Shown here piece by piece: positions 1,047 to 7,910 of a stretch of DNA of 37,764 nt. Numbering within the stretch: position 1 is the first letter of the stretch; every line of letters begins with the position of its first letter. A program made the translations under genes and the position numbers. The notes under the pieces are model-generated. The model was not told the origin of the DNA. It saw only the letters and a program-made list of their open reading frames with translations, and ran no database searches. The DNA is from Bacteroidetes bacterium GWA2_40_15 (GTDB lineage Bacteria; Bacteroidota; Bacteroidia; Bacteroidales; VadinHA17). Location of the stretch: contig MENI01000087.1 of NCBI GenBank assembly GCA_001768195.1, positions 759-38,522 of the forward strand, read 5' to 3'.

Positions 1047-1443
1047 CAGCTTTCATGTAAGCCGGTTATTAAACTCACCCTTCCCTGGCTTCCTGCACGG
1101 ACCTCAGTTTCGAATTTGAATATGCTGGAAATCAGGTTTTGAAAAGGGGATAAATATAAATCATTCTAAAATATTCCGATCAAAAAAGTAGCAGTTAAGG
1201 TTCAGTTCAGCTTAATATCATTTTTTGTTTTAATTTATTGATATTCTGTGCAATAAATGGCATGAAAATTGATTACCTAAAATCGATTGTTAATAAAATA
1301 CCAATTGTGTTAATATTTATGGTAGTCGAATGATACAATGTATTTATAGTTTATTTATTTTCGTTCCAATTATATATAAAAGAGTTATTAATTTAAAAAC
1401 AATTAAAATTAAAAGACAAAGGTGAAATTGCTCATCTGCAATC
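1047..1443. other. 397-bp A+T-rich intergenic region
   Basis: No gene is recognised on either strand. The stretch contains an imperfect sigma-54-like site at 1258-1273 and a purine-rich AAAGGTG at about 1420-1426, roughly 18 bases before the kamA ATG. I found no exact TTTG-N19-21-TAnnTTTG promoter on the plus strand. Length and composition suggest a regulatory spacer in front of the kamA gene run. Confidence 0.6.
1258..1273 (+). promoter_or_regulatory. Possible sigma-54 (-24/-12) promoter
   Basis: The sequence TGGCATG-AAAA-TTGAT compares with the consensus TGGCAYG-N4-TTGCW. The -24 element and the spacing fit, but the nearly invariant GC of the -12 element reads GA, so this is an imperfect match. 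It lies about 170 bases before the kamA ATG and about 210 bases after a gene for a sigma-54 activator. That position makes control of the kamA run by the neighbouring regulator plausible but not shown. Confidence 0.3.
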
Positions 1444-2685
1444 ATGAACGCTAACAATAATGAGGCTACGACCCTCCGTGGAGAGAGTCGCCTCGTGGGT
1501 TGCTCTTCTGATGAAGAGCCTGGCGCGAAGACCACGATTTTTTCGCAAAACGAAATCCCAAACAAGTTAGTTAGCAACCGAAGTTCGGACTTCTTTCACC
1601 GCTACTTCCCCCTAACAACTATCGATTCCTGGAATGATTGGAAATGGCAGCTCAGAAATGCTTTCACCAGCATTGATGATCTAAAGAAAATTATGAAACT
1701 ATCCGACAAGGAAGTTATGGCCATTAATAATCTTAAAGGCCGTTTACCGCTACGGATAACTCCTTATTTCGCATCTCTGATCTACAATTCTAAATTTTCA
1801 GATCCATTGCGGCGTAATGTCATTCCTGTTGTTGAAGAGTTATTGCAACATTCAACAGAGCAATCCGATCCGCTTCATGAGAAATCATTTTCACCCGTAA
1901 AAGGAATTGTACATCGTTATCCCGACAGAGTATTGTTTACAGTAACTCAGGTCTGCTCTAATTACTGCAGGTATTGTACACGATCTCACTCAGTAGGTAA
2001 GCTCGATAAACTGGGAAAACAGGATTTCGAAAAAGCGTTCAGTTATATTGCATCACATAAGGAGGTGCGGGATGTGCTTATCAGCGGAGGTGATCCGCTG
2101 ACAGTAAGCGATGAACTGCTCGACTACATCCTTTCAAATATCCGAAAGATTGAGCATGTTGAAATTATCAGGATCGGAACAAGGATCCCTGTGGTTCTTC
2201 CCCAAAGGATCACCGATAATCTGATATCAATCCTGAGAAAATATCATCCTCTCTTCATTAGTCTTCACTTCTCACATCCGGGTGAAATTACAGATGAATG
2301 TGCAAAAGCATGTATCAAGCTCGCCGATGGCGGTTTTCCTCTCGGAAGCCAGACAGTTCTGCTTAAAGGCATCAATGATAATGTACCTGTCATGAAGGAA
2401 CTTATGCACAGATTACTGAAGATAAGAGTAAGACCTTATTACCTGTATCAGTGTGACCTGATTCCGGGATCAGGACATTTCAGAACAACTGTCAGGAAAG
2501 GTCTTGAAATAATAAAAGGACTGAGAGGCTTTACAAGTGGTTATGCCATTCCAACATTTGTCGTTGACGCTCCTGGAGGCGGAGGTAAAATTCCTTTGCT
2601 TCCGAATTATGTTGTAGAACATAATGACGAAAAAATTGTGATGCGTAATTACAAGGGGGTGTTGTGCGAGTATCCTGAAAAATAA
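1444..2685 (+). CDS. kamA: Lysine 2,3-aminomutase (KamA-type radical SAM/PLP enzyme)
   Basis: The enzyme should convert L-lysine to L-beta-lysine using SAM, a [4Fe-4S] cluster and PLP. Visible features are the cluster motif CSNYCRYC (C171, C175, C178), R180 directly after it, D338 in YYLYQCDL, D375 in VVDAPGGGGK and the PLP lysine K382. These align with C125/C129/C132, R134, D293, D330 and K337 of the Clostridium subterminale enzyme at a constant offset of 45-46. Glutamate 2,3-aminomutases change the two aspartates, so lysine is the better prediction. The protein stops at 413 residues and lacks the C-terminal CxCxxC zinc region of the clostridial enzyme. Residues 1-50 match nothing I know and coincide with the structured G+C-rich DNA. 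ATG 1444 or GTG 1495 are the possible starts, since no other ATG, GTG or TTG precedes the conserved WNDWKWQLRN. Confidence 0.88.
   Translation: MNANNNEATTLRGESRLVGCSSDEEPGAKTTIFSQNEIPNKLVSNRSSDFFHRYFPLTTIDSWNDWKWQLRNAFTSIDDLKKIMKLSDKEVMAINNLKGRLPLRITPYFASLIYNSKFSDPLRRNVIPVVEELLQHSTEQSDPLHEKSFSPVKGIVHRYPDRVLFTVTQVCSNYCRYCTRSHSVGKLDKLGKQDFEKAFSYIASHKEVRDVLISGGDPLTVSDELLDYILSNIRKIEHVEIIRIGTRIPVVLPQRITDNLISILRKYHPLFISLHFSHPGEITDECAKACIKLADGGFPLGSQTVLLKGINDNVPVMKELMHRLLKIRVRPYYLYQCDLIPGSGHFRTTVRKGLEIIKGLRGFTSGYAIPTFVVDAPGGGGKIPLLPNYVVEHNDEKIVMRNYKGVLCEYPEK
1462..1543 (+). other. G+C-rich, self-complementary segment at the kamA 5' end
   Basis: By my count about 62% of bases 1462-1537 are G or C, against a very A+T-rich upstream spacer. 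Three stems can be drawn. Stem one pairs GAGGC (1462-1466) with GCCTC (1490-1494), with inner pairs around loop CGTG. Stem two pairs GCTCTTC (1502-1508) with GAAGAGC (1513-1519), loop TGAT. An enclosing stem pairs TCGTGG (1493-1498) with CCACGA (1532-1537), sharing bases 1493-1494 with stem one, and is followed at once by TTTTTT (1538-1543) as in an intrinsic terminator. The segment is open in the kamA frame. It could be a coding palindromic insertion or a structured mRNA leader. Confidence 0.4.
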
Positions 2686-2695
2686 TACCTGAGGA

Positions 2696-3667
2696 ATGAA
2701 AATCGGGTTGACCTATGATTTACGGTCATGGTATCTTGACCGGGGGTATTCTATGGATGAAACTGTCGAATTTGATAAGCAGGAAACTGTTGATGCGCTT
2801 TCGGATTCTCTGAAATTTATGGGACATGAGACTGAATTGATAGGAAATGCATTTCAGCTTATAGAGGCGTTGGCAGAAGGCAGGAAGTGGGATATGGTTT
2901 TCAATATTGCAGAAGGATTATTTGGCGACGGGAGGGAATCTGTTGTCCCGGCAATCCTAGATCAGTACAGGATACCTTATGTATTCAGCGGTCCGGTCAT
3001 TATGGGACTTTCTCTGAATAAACATCTTGCCAAACTTGTTGTAGCAGCAGCAGGTGTTCCTGTCAGTCCCGGATTCCTGGTAACGGATAAAAGAGACTTA
3101 GAGAACCTTAAACTTGAATATCCCCTTTTTGTCAAACCGGTATCCGAAGGAACCGGTAAAGGAATTACTGACAAAAGCCTGGTTAATTCCTTTTCAGAAC
3201 TTAAACCAATGGTAGAATGGATACTCAGGGAATTTAACCAGCCTGCACTTGTAGAAGAGTATCTTCCGGGAAGAGAATTTACTATTGGTATTGTAGGACA
3301 TGGAGATCAGACAGTTGCAATTGGAGGTATGGAAGTAATTACTACAGATAATCTCCCCTATTCTGTCCATGTAAAAGAGAATTACCATGATTATTGCAGG
3401 TACATTCCTCTTTCGGAAGATATAGAAGAAGAATGTAAAGCTGTGGCAGTCAAAGCATGGAGAGCGCTGAATGCTGTTGATGGTGGCAGGGTCGATGTTA
3501 AGGCAGACAGAAACGGCAGAATATGTTTCATTGAAGCCAATCCGCTTGCCGGACTGAATCCCGTTCATTCCGACCTGCCAATTCTGGCCAGGATGTACAA
3601 TATTGATTATCAGAAATTACTGGAGATGATTATGTCTTCGGCAATAAAAAGAATAAAGGGGAATTAA
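2696..3667 (+). CDS. ATP-grasp ligase, D-Ala-D-Ala ligase-like (first of two)
   Basis: At 323 residues this has the length of a D-Ala-D-Ala ligase. ATP-grasp features are FNIAEGLFGDGRESVVPA (about 85-102), the nucleotide-binding strand PLFVKPVSEGTGKGI (about 143-157), VEEYLPGREFTIGI (about 180-193) and the metal site FIEANPLAGLNP (about 280-291). Such enzymes form amide bonds through acyl-phosphate intermediates. The gene starts 10 bases after the kamA stop, with GAGG just before the ATG, so the two are probably co-transcribed. No ddl, mur or fts genes are nearby, which argues against a peptidoglycan role. I infer that the substrate is beta-lysine or a derivative; the order of coupling and the partner cannot be read from the sequence. 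Confidence 0.82.
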   Translation: MKIGLTYDLRSWYLDRGYSMDETVEFDKQETVDALSDSLKFMGHETELIGNAFQLIEALAEGRKWDMVFNIAEGLFGDGRESVVPAILDQYRIPYVFSGPVIMGLSLNKHLAKLVVAAAGVPVSPGFLVTDKRDLENLKLEYPLFVKPVSEGTGKGITDKSLVNSFSELKPMVEWILREFNQPALVEEYLPGREFTIGIVGHGDQTVAIGGMEVITTDNLPYSVHVKENYHDYCRYIPLSEDIEEECKAVAVKAWRALNAVDGGRVDVKADRNGRICFIEANPLAGLNPVHSDLPILARMYNIDYQKLLEMIMSSAIKRIKGN

Positions 3668-3697
3668 ACCGGAGTATTTCAACCGATTTTAAATTTT

Positions 3698-4663
3698 ATG
3701 AGTAGATGTTGTATTATTTATAATGAACCTTTGCCCGGAGCTCTCGAAGATGAGCTTGATGTAATTGATCAGGTGGATCATGTCGAAAAAGGTTTACGGG
3801 AACTTGGCATTGATGCATACCGTAAGGGAATAACAGATAAGTTCATGGACGAAGTGAATGCCCTTGTTCTGGAAAAACCTGATTTCGTTTACAATCTTGT
3901 TGAGTCGATAAACAATAAGGGGGAACTGAACTATTTTGTGCCTGCCCTGCTGAATCTTAATTCGATTCCATATACGGGCAATTCGCATGAAGCAATATTT
4001 ATGACAACCAGTAAGGTTCTGTCAGGCAGGATGATGAAAATGGCAGGTATACCAAATCCGGAATGCTATCTTCCTTCGCAGATGAATCTTCTCAAACCTG
4101 GTAAGAAGTACATACTGAAACCAATATGGGAAGATGGATCACTCGGAATCACTGCCGATTCTGTTTTTGTTTGTAAACCAGGGTATGAAGAAAAGTTGAA
4201 AGGATTAAGTGACTCTCACTGGTTCATTGAGGAGTTTATTGATGGCCGCGAATTCAACATGAGTGTGTTTTCGGGCAGCAACGGACCGGAAGTATTGCCT
4301 GTGGCAGAGATTGTATTTGTCGGATATGATGAAACAAGACCTAAAATCATTGATTACAAGGCCAAGTGGGAAATGGATACTTTTGAATATGATAATACTG
4401 TACGGGACTTTCCGGGAGAAAAGCTTGACAGTGATATCATGAATAAGCTAAGAAAGGTTACACTTGATTGCTGGCATCTATTCGGACTCAAGGGTTATGC
4501 CCGGGTTGATGCCCGGGTTGACGGAAACAATAACGTTTTTGTCATTGAAATAAACGCCAATCCATGCATTCAGCCAAATGGCGGATTTATGGCTGCAACC
4601 CGCACCGGTGGTTATAATTTTCCGGAAGTGTTGCAGAGAATCATTGACGATTTAAACAAATAG
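3698..4663 (+). CDS. ATP-grasp ligase, D-Ala-D-Ala ligase-like (second of two)
   Basis: The 321 residues have the same overall plan as the preceding gene but are clearly diverged, so this is not a recent duplicate. Seen are DFVYNLVESINNKGELNY (about 62-79), KYILKPIWEDGSLGI (about 136-150), FIEEFIDGREFNMSVF (about 176-191) and the metal-binding FVIEINANPCIQPNGG (about 282-297). The C-terminal NPCIQPNGG differs from NPLAGLNP in the first enzyme, which suggests different acceptor or donor substrates. The gene lies 30 bases after the first ligase and 4 bases before the acetyltransferase gene. Two unlike ligases in a row suggest a product with two new amide bonds, or a ligase plus a modifying enzyme. 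The family is confident and the substrate unknown. Confidence 0.82.
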   Translation: MSRCCIIYNEPLPGALEDELDVIDQVDHVEKGLRELGIDAYRKGITDKFMDEVNALVLEKPDFVYNLVESINNKGELNYFVPALLNLNSIPYTGNSHEAIFMTTSKVLSGRMMKMAGIPNPECYLPSQMNLLKPGKKYILKPIWEDGSLGITADSVFVCKPGYEEKLKGLSDSHWFIEEFIDGREFNMSVFSGSNGPEVLPVAEIVFVGYDETRPKIIDYKAKWEMDTFEYDNTVRDFPGEKLDSDIMNKLRKVTLDCWHLFGLKGYARVDARVDGNNNVFVIEINANPCIQPNGGFMAATRTGGYNFPEVLQRIIDDLNK

Positions 4664-4667
4664 ATCA

Positions 4668-5147
4668 ATGCAGACAATATTAAAAGGTATCATTGCCGAA
4701 GACCGAAATGCGATTGAGGAGATACTCAGATCAACAGATTTTTTTTATGAATTTGAGATACAGACCGCCCTTGAACTTGCCGATGCTACAATTTCAATGG
4801 GAGAAGAAAAAAGCGGCTACCGGTGGATGAAGATTATCGACGATGATGGATTGATTGCTTTTGCCAATTATGGCAAGAATGACTTTTCAACTCACTCCTG
4901 GGAGCTATACTGGATAGCTGTTCATCAGAATTCACGCAATAAAAAACTTGGTTCTGTAATATTGAAGGTTATTGAAGAAGATATACGGAAAGCCGGAGGG
5001 AAAATACTTTGGATAGAAACATCAGGACGGCCTCATTATGCTTCAACAGAGGCTTTTTATAAAAGGAACGGATATGATCTTCATGCAAGCCTTAAGGATT
5101 TCTATGCAGACGGCGATCCTAAGCAGATATACTCAAAGGTTTTATAG
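4668..5147 (+). CDS. GNAT-family N-acetyltransferase of the kamA cluster
   Basis: The 159 residues form a single GNAT domain. The acetyl-CoA-binding region is at about 83-108 (WIAVHQNSRNKKLGSVIL followed by a helix), and the C-terminal part has ASTEAFYKRNGYDL (about 125-138), typical of GNAT beta-strand 5 and its helix. The start codon follows the stop of the second ligase by 4 bases, so coupling is likely. In archaea and some bacteria a KamA (AblA) is paired with an acetyltransferase (AblB) that makes N-epsilon-acetyl-beta-lysine, a compatible solute. This protein is shorter than AblB as I remember it, and here two ligases intervene, so it may instead cap a beta-lysine amide. The GNAT fold is confident; the substrate is inference. 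Confidence 0.82.
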   Translation: MQTILKGIIAEDRNAIEEILRSTDFFYEFEIQTALELADATISMGEEKSGYRWMKIIDDDGLIAFANYGKNDFSTHSWELYWIAVHQNSRNKKLGSVILKVIEEDIRKAGGKILWIETSGRPHYASTEAFYKRNGYDLHASLKDFYADGDPKQIYSKVL

Positions 5148-5186: not shown

Positions 5187-5555
5187 ATGAAAGGTCTGAA
5201 TACCATACTCCTGCTTATTATGTCAAATGCATTTATGACTATGGCCTGGTATGGGCATCTCAAGATGAAGTCGATGAGCAGGTTCGAGAATATGAGTCTG
5301 CTGGCCGTAATACTGTTTAGCTGGGGTATAGCATTTTTTGAATACCTGTTGCAGGTACCCGCAAACAGAATTGGCTACTCCGGAACCGGAGGTCCATATT
5401 CTCTTATTGAACTGAAAGTAATCCAGGAAGTTATATCAATAAGTGTGTTTACATTGTTCACTCTTGTGGTTTTCAAAAATGAACATTTTAGGATAAATCA
5501 TCTTATAGGTTTTGTATTTCTGGTACTTGCAGTCTATTTCATCTTTAAGAAATAA
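5187..5555 (+). CDS. DMT-superfamily small membrane protein, DUF486
   Basis: This 122-residue protein has four hydrophobic segments at about 3-20, 37-53, 84-101 and 103-120, and matches the DUF486 (COG3169) family in length. Recognisable family stretches are AWYGHLKM near residue 20, SWGIAFFEYLLQVPANRIGY (about 45-64) and LIELKVIQEVISI (about 73-85). The family belongs to the drug/metabolite transporter superfamily, but no substrate is established that I know of. It sits 39 bases after the GNAT gene and 11 bases before ung. Export of the product of the kamA cluster is conceivable on position alone, and I would not assert it. Confidence 0.8.
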   Translation: MKGLNTILLLIMSNAFMTMAWYGHLKMKSMSRFENMSLLAVILFSWGIAFFEYLLQVPANRIGYSGTGGPYSLIELKVIQEVISISVFTLFTLVVFKNEHFRINHLIGFVFLVLAVYFIFKK

Positions 5556-5566
5556 CTCACTCAAGG

Positions 5567-6232
5567 ATGAATGTAACTATTGAATCATCATGGAAGTCTG
5601 TACTTAAGGATGAATTCGAAAAAGAGTATTTCGTTAAGCTTACAGGTTTCATTAGGGAAGAATACAGGACAACTACTGTATATCCGCCTGCAGGGTTGAT
5701 ATTCAATGCCTTCAACCTGTGCCCGTTCTCCAGCGTAAAAACTGTTATTATCGGACAGGATCCTTATCATGGCCCGGGACAGGCTCACGGATTATGTTTT
5801 TCGGTAAGGGATGGCATCGATTTTCCTCCAAGCCTTATTAATATTTTCAAAGAGATTGAACAGGATATCGGAATTACCTCTCCTGCATCAGGTGATCTTG
5901 AAAGATGGGCGCGACAGGGTGTTTTGTTGCTGAATGCAACACTTACAGTAAGAGCACATCTGGCTGGCTCACATCAGAAAAAAGGATGGGAGCATTTTAC
6001 CGATGCAGTCATATCACGGATAAATAGCGAGAAAGAAAATATAGTATTTCTTCTGTGGGGTGCGTATGCACAGAAGAAAGGAGAAGCTATTGACAGGAAC
6101 AGGCATCTTGTACTGGAATCAGTCCATCCCTCACCTCTTTCGGCATACCGGGGATTCTTCGGTAACGGTCATTTCAGCAAATGCAACAAATACCTTACCG
6201 AAAAAGGTATCCAACCAATCGACTGGAAATGA
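5567..6232 (+). CDS. ung: Uracil-DNA glycosylase, family 1
   Basis: The enzyme removes uracil from DNA as the first step of base-excision repair. All family 1 motifs are present. The water-activating loop is GQDPYHGPGQAHGLCFSV (63-80), with catalytic D65. LLLNATLTV is at 120-128 and GSHQKKGW at 134-141. The minor-groove/leucine intercalation loop is VHPSPLSAYRGFFG (186-199), with H187. The length of 221 residues is normal. The start ATG follows an AAGG and lies 11 bases after the DUF486 stop, so ung probably shares its transcript. It converges on the PLP-enzyme gene with only 7 bases between the stop codons. Confidence 0.97.
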   Translation: MNVTIESSWKSVLKDEFEKEYFVKLTGFIREEYRTTTVYPPAGLIFNAFNLCPFSSVKTVIIGQDPYHGPGQAHGLCFSVRDGIDFPPSLINIFKEIEQDIGITSPASGDLERWARQGVLLLNATLTVRAHLAGSHQKKGWEHFTDAVISRINSEKENIVFLLWGAYAQKKGEAIDRNRHLVLESVHPSPLSAYRGFFGNGHFSKCNKYLTEKGIQPIDWK

Positions 6233-6239
6233 TTTTGTT

Positions 6240-7412
6240 TCAGAGCTGTTCAAGAGCTTCTGATATTGTTTTCTCAATAGCTGTATAATCTTCAAATCCG
6301 ACTGATAATCTTATCATTCCGGGTTCCGGGTACTTAGCGCCCCATACAGCCTCAACAGGCATAAGTATGGTATGCGGGTCTCCAAGTGTCGGAATAAGTC
6401 TGATTATCTCTGAAACATTTGCAATAAATTTATCACGCTTTTCTCTTTTCTCTGCATTATCAGATCCCTTCAGGTCAAATGTTATCATCGCTCCAAAGCC
6501 ACGGTTTCCAAATATTTTCTTAGCAACAGAATGAGTTGCATGTCCTGACAATCCGGGAAACCATACATTCTCTATTGCTGCAGAATCATTAAGAAATTTT
6601 GCCAGTATTGCCGCATTCTCACACTGCCGGCTGAATCTCAGATTGAAAGTCTGTATCTGAGTCTGAAGCCTGTAAGCATCATCAGGAGATATCATATGAC
6701 CGGTAAATTTCCTGTATTCAATAGCCGATCGCATAAGCAAATCGTCGTTGCCGCAAATCACGCCTGCCGTAATATTACCATGACCTGAAAGATATTTGGT
6801 TACGCTGTGGATTACCATGTCAATCCCATCCTCAAGTGGTTTATATAGCAATGGCGTAGCAAATGTATTGTCAATGATAACTCTGCAGCCGTGTTTTCCT
6901 GCTATCGCAGCAATGGCAGGAACATCTGCTACAATCAGCATAGGATTTGAGATTGATTCAATGTAAACAAACTCAGGTTTCAATGATGCAAGAACTCTTT
7001 CCAGTTCAGTAAGATCGTAAGTTCCCCCTGATGGTGTAAAATATTGGATCTCAATTCCTCTTCTCTTTTTCAGAACAGATTCAATGAATGATATGGATCC
7101 TCCGTAAATTTCAGAGAAAAAGAGCCAGGGTTTTGTTTTTTTACCCAGCTGGAAAACAGATACAGCTGTATCAATTGCTGACATTCCGGATTGAGTCAGC
7201 AATGCCCACCTGCATCCCTCGAGTTTCATAATTTCCTCTTCAGCAGAGACAACTGTAGGATTACGATACCGGGAATATATATAATTCTCCGGTTCCCTCT
7301 CATGTTCTGTTTCTTTCCTGAAAGTTTCTGCAGTCAGGTCTGCATTGTACAGCTCAAATCCTGAATCCCTGTAAACAGGAATTCTTGAACTGTTAATCAC
7401 TTTCTTTTTCAT
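6240..7412 (-). CDS. Cys/Met-metabolism PLP-dependent (trans-sulfuration) enzyme
   Basis: This is a 390-residue fold-type I PLP enzyme of the cystathionine gamma-synthase/lyase family. Seen are the YSRYRNPT phosphate-binding motif (46-53), the cofactor-stacking tyrosine in EIYGGSISF (Y103), DNTFATP (181-187) with the aspartate that contacts the pyridine nitrogen, and SVTKYLSGHG (203-212) with K206 as the Schiff-base lysine. The position of the cysteine typical of methionine gamma-lyases (YGC) is YGG here, so a cystathionine synthase/lyase or O-acyl-homoserine sulfhydrylase is more likely than a classical methionine gamma-lyase. The ATG overlaps the last 20 bases of the decayed dmsC remnant. 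Expression may therefore depend on the promoter of the former dms operon. Confidence 0.9.
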   Translation of the reverse strand: MKKKVINSSRIPVYRDSGFELYNADLTAETFRKETEHEREPENYIYSRYRNPTVVSAEEEIMKLEGCRWALLTQSGMSAIDTAVSVFQLGKKTKPWLFFSEIYGGSISFIESVLKKRRGIEIQYFTPSGGTYDLTELERVLASLKPEFVYIESISNPMLIVADVPAIAAIAGKHGCRVIIDNTFATPLLYKPLEDGIDMVIHSVTKYLSGHGNITAGVICGNDDLLMRSAIEYRKFTGHMISPDDAYRLQTQIQTFNLRFSRQCENAAILAKFLNDSAAIENVWFPGLSGHATHSVAKKIFGNRGFGAMITFDLKGSDNAEKREKRDKFIANVSEIIRLIPTLGDPHTILMPVEAVWGAKYPEPGMIRLSVGFEDYTAIEKTISEALEQL

Positions 7413-7635
7413 TCCTTATGGCGGATATATGATTATTCATTAAAAGAATTAACCCCGGTGGTTCAAAGTCAAAGTAAAACAAAATATGATCGATGAGTTC
7501 ACCGGCAATAAATATAGCCAATACTACAGGTTCGGGATATGATATTCCTGAAATAAAACTGGCTCCGGCGACTATTAAAAAAGCGATTCTCATGAATCTC
7601 AGAGATGAAATGTTTCTGGTTTTCAAATTACGCAC
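7393..7635 (-). pseudogene. C-terminal remnant of a DmsC/NrfD-type membrane anchor
   Basis: An 80-codon frame begins at a GTG that overlaps the stop of the ferredoxin remnant. It contains RFMRIAFLIVAGASF, then VVLAIFIAGELIDHILFYFD. The second part resembles the last transmembrane helix of DMSO-reductase anchor subunits, where a GEL..R.LFY pattern is usual. DmsC-type anchors are about 280 residues with eight or so helices, so roughly three quarters of the protein is missing. I interpret this as the tail of a third dms gene. The assignment rests on the helix pattern and the position after the DmsB-like remnant, and is weaker than for the other two pieces. Confidence 0.6.
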
Positions 7636-7910
7636 TAAACTATATGGGGGATATCCAATGACCTGCCTTTAAATTTCATAGCAGGATTCAGACCATTTTC
7701 CGGAAACCAGGCAGGTGTATCTGCATTATTATCATTACAATGGTTGCAGGCTATTGAGAGAGATATAATGGGAAGTGCTGCCGAGACATCTGAATTACAG
7801 GTAAATACTGACCTGGGTTTTATTTTAAAGCTGTATTCAAGAATACAGGCTGCACTGCATGATTTGCAGCCGACACAAAGGTTTTTGTCAAAAATAAAAC
7901 CGCTTCTCAT
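7635..7910 (-). pseudogene. Internally deleted DmsB-type ferredoxin subunit
   Basis: The 91-codon frame joins two ends of an iron-sulfur subunit that is normally about 200 residues long. Residues 1-60 are a good DmsB N-terminus, with FIFDKNLCVGCKSCSAAC supplying the first cluster cysteines (C12, C15, C18, C22) and SIACNHC (52-58) beginning the second motif. From about residue 64 the sequence jumps to TPAWFPENGLNPAMKFKG, which belongs to the C-terminus of the family. The missing part carries the other three ferredoxin-type motifs, so electron transfer along a four-cluster chain is impossible. The junction lies near 7719-7730 and keeps the frame. The ATG overlaps the stop of the dmsA remnant as ATGA, an intact trace of operon coupling. 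Confidence 0.85.

Follow-up and report, generated by a model that had tools for sequence, protein, structure and literature searches.

We analysed a window of 37,764 nucleotides from Bacteroidetes bacterium GWA2_40_15 (contig MENI01000087.1, positions 759 to 38,522), in which a gene for a lysine 2,3-aminomutase-type enzyme (kamA) precedes genes for two ATP-grasp ligases of the D-alanine-D-alanine ligase (Ddl) fold, here termed AG1 and AG2, and for a GNAT N-acetyltransferase. The association of these four genes goes far beyond chance, and the set is a real and widespread unit. We propose, at a probability of about 0.6, that it constitutes one biosynthetic unit producing a beta-lysine-containing amide or small peptide that is often acetylated. 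In the clade to which the window belongs, a structured RNA also lies over the start of kamA. The gene set was undescribed in the papers found by a full-text search, which covered few subscription papers and no bioRxiv.

Distribution of the gene set

We searched 296 genomes of the phylum with AG2 and 149 genomes of the order with AG1 and then read the neighbourhoods. A scan of named-species genomes with an AG1 profile (tblastn, E up to 1e-3) gave at least 569 relatives, some of which may be Ddl-like genes of other kinds. The 80 loci with the best AG1 scores were used; these lean to close relatives, many of them end early, and gene starts in the fetched loci were picked by script. Fetched via AG1 alone, the 80 loci contain KamA in 70 cases, AG2 in 73 and GNAT in 55, and all four genes are present in 50. 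The four-gene neighbourhood, presented in a preliminary description of this DNA as a functional cluster, therefore recurs in many genomes. The titles of the 80 loci name 11 phyla, with 8 rows unlabelled; almost all of these labels are titles of metagenome-assembled genomes (MAGs), so that binning errors are possible. Prolixibacter denitrificans DSM 27267 (L152), the only named isolate among the 80 loci, has all four genes.

Two gene orders were found: KamA-AG1-AG2-GNAT in the taxonomic order of the window, and AG1-AG2-GNAT-KamA in L258 and in a different class of the phylum. The lineage with the latter arrangement is called the second lineage below. The median spacing between KamA and AG1 is 14 bases, and AG1 and AG2 overlap in 30 of the 53 loci measured. 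Distances in the trees of the four genes correlate at 0.79-0.86 over 66 loci and at 0.53-0.69 within the 54 loci that have the arrangement of the window. In a KamA tree of 68 rows, the window KamA falls in a 30-member clade of cluster KamAs, which is separate from the 11 non-cluster KamAs of the order. Two of these 11 (L215 and L218) belong to genomes whose AG1 locus has no KamA (G409 and G374), so that these genomes may use another KamA. The AG1 tree requires 19 changes of phylum label against a minimum of 10, which suggests that AG1 has spread by transfer, though the MAG labels are imperfect. In the second lineage recG adjoins the cluster (RecG domains in L034, the same family in nine loci); we rejected recG as part of the cluster, as it looks like a local neighbour. 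In L113, an in-frame stop, either real or an assembly error, breaks the kamA frame (5707-6993) into two parts.

KamA and the ligases also co-occur across whole genomes. KamA was found in 83 of the 84 AG1-positive and 51 of the 163 AG1-negative genomes of a Desulfobacterota sample (247 genomes; AG1 positive at E up to 1e-70, KamA at E up to 1e-100). This AG1 cut, which keeps 84 of the 95 genomes found at 1e-50, was set after viewing the list, and the positives include two lone AG1-like loci (G472 and G510). For the window's order the corresponding counts are 22 of 23 AG1-positive and 24 of 126 other genomes (149 genomes; KamA at E up to 1e-60; 717-residue fusions in G351 and G392 removed from 25 AG1 hits). 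The Fisher p-values, 1e-28 and 1e-12 respectively, are overstated because related genomes are not independent, and are indicative only. All 18 Desulfobacterota genomes checked carry KamA, which lies away from the ligases in 14 of them; since KamA is present even when unlinked, the ligase pair rarely occurs without the aminomutase. The unlinked Desulfobacterota KamA genes that we fetched (12 of 12, L286-L297) stand directly behind a small gene reading by eye as MerR-like, and in L253 genes for a sensor kinase and a sigma-54 response regulator separate AG1 from KamA.

Enzyme families and known systems

The coordinates of the open reading frames agree exactly with the earlier reading of four adjacent plus-strand genes with spacers of 10, 30 and 4 bases. 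The top model for the window KamA is that of lysine 2,3-aminomutase (TIGR03820; 499.3 bits, below the curated cut-off of 525.4), and the protein scores above the NCBIfam cut-off for KamA-type radical SAM enzymes (TIGR00238; 362.6 versus 199.2 bits). It misses the cut-offs for glutamate and arginine 2,3-aminomutases (TIGR04368, 442.3 versus 650 bits; TIGR04468, 396.2 versus 600 bits) and for EpmB (TIGR03821, 252.3 versus 369.3 bits); the EpmB/EpmA beta-lysylation of elongation factor P likewise draws beta-lysine from a KamA-family enzyme. An alignment of 353 residues with the clostridial lysine 2,3-aminomutase 2a5h places D338 and D375 at aspartates D293 and D330 of that enzyme, which we take to bind the lysine side chain. 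C171, C175 and C178 presumably form the radical SAM CxxxCxxC motif and K382 is presumably the lysine that binds pyridoxal phosphate. All six residues are retained in 68 of 68 KamA sequences compared, so the two aspartates stand as first described. Sequence comparison thereby supports a KamA of the lysine type. The protein also has an N-terminal extension of about residues 1-60. Such extensions are poorly conserved in Bacteroidota and Desulfobacterota, where they contain a short E-P-P-S motif (L093, L126, L129, L287).

AG1 and AG2 share the fold and the ATP and Mg residues of the Ddl and Van ligases, whereas the Ddl substrate residues are changed in both (Y216 to E and others or W; L282 to D, C or G). 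Their scores with the Ddl model, 132.4 and 99.3 bits, lie far below the curated cut-off of 243, and a separate Ddl is encoded elsewhere in the genome of the window. These results uphold the earlier view that the two ligases differ from each other and from ordinary Ddl enzymes. AG1 keeps a serine (66 of 66 sequences) at the place of Ddl S281, which presumably binds the carboxylate of the second substrate.

Several more distant relatives of the ligases were set apart. AG1-like fusions were excluded as other families: L095 joins ATP-grasp to a peptidase-M20 domain, L096 is similar in length, and L097 (in its own genome C26:155955-156875) joins a methyltransferase domain to an AG1-like ATP-grasp domain. 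No AG2 relative was found among viral contigs by the patterns used. Plasmid matches to AG2 were all less than 60% identical (25-30% in the ten listed). The two plasmid regions examined, from Rhizobium and Sinorhizobium, have no KamA among their listed genes and on this evidence were rejected as the same system. On a Sinorhizobium meliloti plasmid (L099, NZ_CP021815.1) two tandem ATP-grasp genes lie near ectB, which encodes diaminobutyrate transaminase; this pair is possibly a parallel system acting on another diamino acid. A Bacillota MAG (L165) encodes KamA, AG1, two consecutive AG2-like ligases and GNAT, hinting at a longer product.

The closest solved relative of the GNAT is named by its depositors as a putative D-alanine N-acetyltransferase. 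The known pathway to N-epsilon-acetyl-beta-lysine, AblA/AblB of methanogens and some bacteria, shares with the window a lysine 2,3-aminomutase feeding a GNAT; here, in contrast, two conserved ATP-grasp ligases are added and the GNAT falls outside the AblB family (TIGR03827, 20.6 versus 205.1 bits). The N-acetylglutaminylglutamine amide osmolyte cluster, composed of asparagine-synthase-like and GNAT/ATP-grasp fusion genes, shares the logic of ATP-dependent coupling and N-acetylation with a hydrolase for turnover. That compound is named in PMC1224877. Unlike that cluster, the present one has an aminomutase, ligases of the Ddl type and an optional amidohydrolase of the acetylpolyamine type, and AG2 and GNAT matched neither asparagine-synthase-like nor GNAT/ATP-grasp fusion models in an NCBIfam search. 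By these tests the proteins are not AblB, Ddl or EpmB, and the gene set resembles a hybrid of the AblA/AblB route and a dipeptide pathway of the ATP-grasp kind.

Proposed product and competing readings

In the pathway that we propose, KamA would convert L-lysine to beta-lysine, and AG1 and AG2 would form two ATP-dependent amide bonds via acyl-phosphates in the manner of Ddl, linking beta-lysine to amino acids or small amines. Where present, GNAT may acetylate the product or an intermediate at one of its amines, a step that could finish, protect or store the product. A GNAT-amidohydrolase fusion encoded in some loci would remove the acetyl group and reverse this step, which would imply turnover of an N-acetylated basic amine. 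In the clade of the window, the RNA probably tunes translation of the operon. We consider an intracellular basic or zwitterionic small molecule, either a protective solute or a polyamine-like compound, more likely than an antibiotic, and a solute role is plausible by analogy with N-epsilon-acetyl-beta-lysine. If the proposal is correct, this is a common yet unnamed biosynthetic pathway, with an AG1 match in 84 of the 247 sampled Desulfobacterota genomes. Sequence models lean to D-Ala-D-Ala ligase for AG1 and AG2, and the relative of the GNAT bears a D-alanine name. Knowing the product would then correct many annotations and give Ddl chemistry a new use; possibly it would also add a protective solute or a polyamine-like compound to those known.

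The fusion, a fifth gene, was found beyond the preliminary description, as were the kamA-start RNA and a polyamine-operon variant. It is present in 18 of the 80 best loci (about a fifth), in three of which the contig ends within it and only its first part is visible. An N-terminal GNAT-like part is fused to a histone-deacetylase-type domain, and the nearest solved relatives are acetylpolyamine amidohydrolases. In L128, L134, L177 and L179 the cluster GNAT shares one frame with the fusion. Four of the 149 genomes of the order encode it, all of them AG1-positive. PF00850 was detected in 7 of 8 cluster genomes and also in 9 of 14 controls. Six of the 8 cluster genomes have frames of 581-749 residues suggestive of the fusion, confirmed as such for L177 only.

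Several observations, given here and in the next paragraphs on polyamine loci and on export, weigh against our proposal. KamA is missing from the available stretch of 10 of the 80 loci. Five of these (L114, L128, L136, L153, L175) have less than 2.1 kb before AG1. Of the 14 close relatives whose sequence is long enough to judge, 5 (L101-L104, L078) have no adjacent GNAT, while L108 stops too soon for a call. Acetylation may thus be optional or be carried out elsewhere, and the product of the preliminary description, its acylation and its use as solute, signal or antimicrobial stay hypothetical. The GNAT-amidohydrolase fusion was not found in the window's own genome. The host titles include fen, lake, digester and marine, and so do not point to salt alone. 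At gathering scores, Rfam models revealed no Na+ or c-di-AMP riboswitch at the operon in the window or in 20 loci: the matches were a tRNA in the window and, in the 20 loci, one tRNA and two cobalamin riboswitches in L135, none of them at the operon start.

Twelve fetched Desulfobacterota AG1-AG2 loci, some with GNAT, follow a gene for pyruvoyl-dependent arginine decarboxylase and have KamA elsewhere. Agmatinase is encoded in 10 of them and a deoxyhypusine-synthase-like protein in 5 (one more weakly), and in L251 the genes overlap end to end. The ligase substrate in these 12 loci may be a polyamine. Together, the amidohydrolase fusion and this operon connect the ligases with amine chemistry, so that a polyamine conjugate has to be taken seriously as a rival, although we rate it as unlikely overall. 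The product would then be a beta-lysyl (or other aminoacyl) polyamine, with putrescine, agmatine or homospermidine as acceptors for AG1 and AG2, and the amidohydrolase and GNATs would act on its acetylated amines, as the acetylpolyamine amidohydrolase type of the fifth gene would fit. Genomes with the decarboxylase-linked pair still carry KamA, unlinked. However, in the AG1 tree the polyamine loci occupy one side of just one branch (support 82) within the second lineage, and a single local fusion of operons may account for them; of the 14 rows labelled polyamine, L273 and L280 end before the decarboxylase could show. The relatives of the window showed no arginine decarboxylase at the locus, and the retained serine of AG1 would suit an acceptor with a carboxylate.

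Alternatively, KamA and GNAT, which would together supply both AblAB activities, might simply make N-acetyl-beta-lysine, with the ligases being unrelated members of the same operon. GNAT is, however, a less steady partner of KamA than AG2 is (55 versus 73 of the 80 loci, some of which are incomplete), and its score with the AblB model is low; this AblA/AblB variant therefore appears improbable to us. The ablA gene of Dehalobacter is controlled by tandem Na+ and c-di-AMP riboswitches, according to PMC9337991, a form of control that would favour the variant.

The third rival is a beta-lysine-based peptide that is exported and serves as antimicrobial, signal or metallophore; beta-lysine is a constituent of the antibiotics streptothricin and viomycin. 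The patchy distribution across many phyla is consistent with such a product, and DMT-type membrane genes flank the cluster in close kin, so export is possible: a DUF486-like gene lies near the cluster in five close relatives (L102, L104, L107, L109, L112) and an EamA transporter gene lies upstream of kamA in seven. Yet both genes are confined to close kin, and no transporter was common to distant clusters among the annotated neighbour families of at least five loci. Members of an ABC ATPase family occur in 15 loci at inconsistent distances from the cluster, that in the window being 30 kb away. We regard an exported peptide as improbable and retain the intracellular beta-lysine amide as the preferred product.

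Structured RNA at the kamA start and neighbouring genes

The RNA over the kamA start, which takes up about the first 45 codons (Table 1), is indicated by synonymous constraint and by covariation. Across the window and 10 relatives (11 sequences), comparable pairs share their codon at a rate of 0.87 over codons 1-52, versus 0.47 over codons 53-413 and a chance level of about 0.385. The 139 nucleotides from position 1440 fold with a z-score of -2.9, and 1 of 200 shuffles was as stable. A covariance model built from the 11 sequences matches L112 and L113, whose KamA proteins are 63 and 61% identical, over its full length (111 and 108 bits), and L079 weakly (27 bits). In the resulting gap-free alignment of 13 sequences, 96.5% of cells pair and 7 pairs are changed on both sides; these two-sided changes amount to 18 cells, versus 3.8 in shuffles. 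Four of five covariation measures were reached by none of 500 shuffles, and the fifth (further pair types) by 451. Shifting the partner by 1-3 columns lowers every measure, in part since the structure came from 11 of the 13 sequences. In the last hairpin two A-U pairs become G-C in L112 and L113 while the encoded residues differ.

The RNA is present in all 13 clade members with a complete kamA start, and L102 holds part of it, cut by the contig end. The model had no match in 84 of 99 sources and, under stricter filters, none in 146 of 149 genomes of the order. No second copy was found in its genome, where the best candidate was a 19-base match at E 0.49. Rfam 15 gave nothing up to E 5 in window positions 1047-1700. 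The RNA thus shares with the cis-regulatory RNAs of Rfam 15, including the ablA Na+ and c-di-AMP riboswitches, a position at the head of a lysine aminomutase operon, and differs from them in being unmatched and in lying inside the reading frame. Among 12 other KamA groups, same-codon constraint at the kamA start was raised in L083, L087, L129, L138 and L145 (0.71 versus 0.52) and mild in the L093 group (0.57 versus 0.45); in the second lineage it was 0.84, over only 91 comparisons in few columns. No comparable fold was found in these three groups.

The RNA stretch is most likely also translated, because the 13 sequences have no indel, third-position variation is modestly raised (27 of 45 versus 36 of 90, p 0.02), and the peptide motif E-E-P-G within it recurs as E-P-P-S in KamA proteins that do not have the RNA. 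The closing stem starts three bases after the AUG, and this proximity to the initiation site suggests translation control. It also makes a structured and at the same time translated element accessible to direct testing. A broader reading, possible though on balance doubtful, is that the gene set stands for a new bacterial class of small molecules in about 11 phyla, the beta-lysine amides (possibly beta-lysyl-polyamines), made by an aminomutase and a repurposed Ddl pair, and that the kamA RNA of one Bacteroidales clade is a dual-coding, riboswitch-like element sensing product, lysine or stress.

Table 1. Coordinates of the genes, RNA elements and related loci described in the text
Feature	Coordinates	Strand	Remarks
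kamA, lysine 2,3-aminomutase-type radical SAM/pyridoxal phosphate enzyme	1444..2685	+	413 aa, ATG start; model matches and alignment
AG1, Ddl-fold ATP-grasp ligase	2696..3667	+	323 aa, ATG start; Dala_Dala_lig_C
AG2, second, distinct Ddl-fold ATP-grasp ligase	3698..4663	+	321 aa, ATG start; Dala_Dala_lig_C
GNAT N-acetyltransferase	4668..5147	+	159 aa, ATG start; nearest solved structure 2r7h
Structured RNA over kamA start	1440..1578	+	139 nt; covariation and synonymous constraint
RNA closing stem	1450-1455/1570-1575	+	
RNA hairpin	1460-1466/1490-1496 with 1471-1476/1483-1488	+	
RNA hairpin	1502-1508/1513-1519	+	
RNA hairpin (last)	1525-1531/1540-1546	+	
RNA further stem, uncertain	1497-1501/1554-1558	+	absent from RNAalifold fold of 13 sequences
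Possible small hairpin GGUGA/UCAUC just 5' of kamA start codon	1421..1436	+	weak; not formed in L078
DUF486/DMT_6 membrane protein gene	5187-5555	+	39 bases downstream of window GNAT
GNAT-amidohydrolase fusion	L081:5351-7120		Pfam domains shown for L081, L134, L177
Arginine-decarboxylase-linked loci			L251, L257, L259, L269, L271, L272, L274-L278, L281

Upstream of kamA lies a sigma-54 activator gene (30-1046), which was not found in the available sequence of 10 relatives, some with little upstream sequence. A sigma-54 promoter between this gene and kamA was considered and rejected, as the best site (position 1258) matches 8 of 11 positions and does not have the -12 GC. Elsewhere in the window (7393-7910, minus strand), two short adjacent open reading frames match the first and last parts of one 442-residue iron-sulfur/membrane protein, which is whole in L100 (Fer4_11). 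The matching parts are about 0.9 kb apart in L100, L102 and L103 and adjacent in the window, which indicates that the stretch in the window is a remnant.

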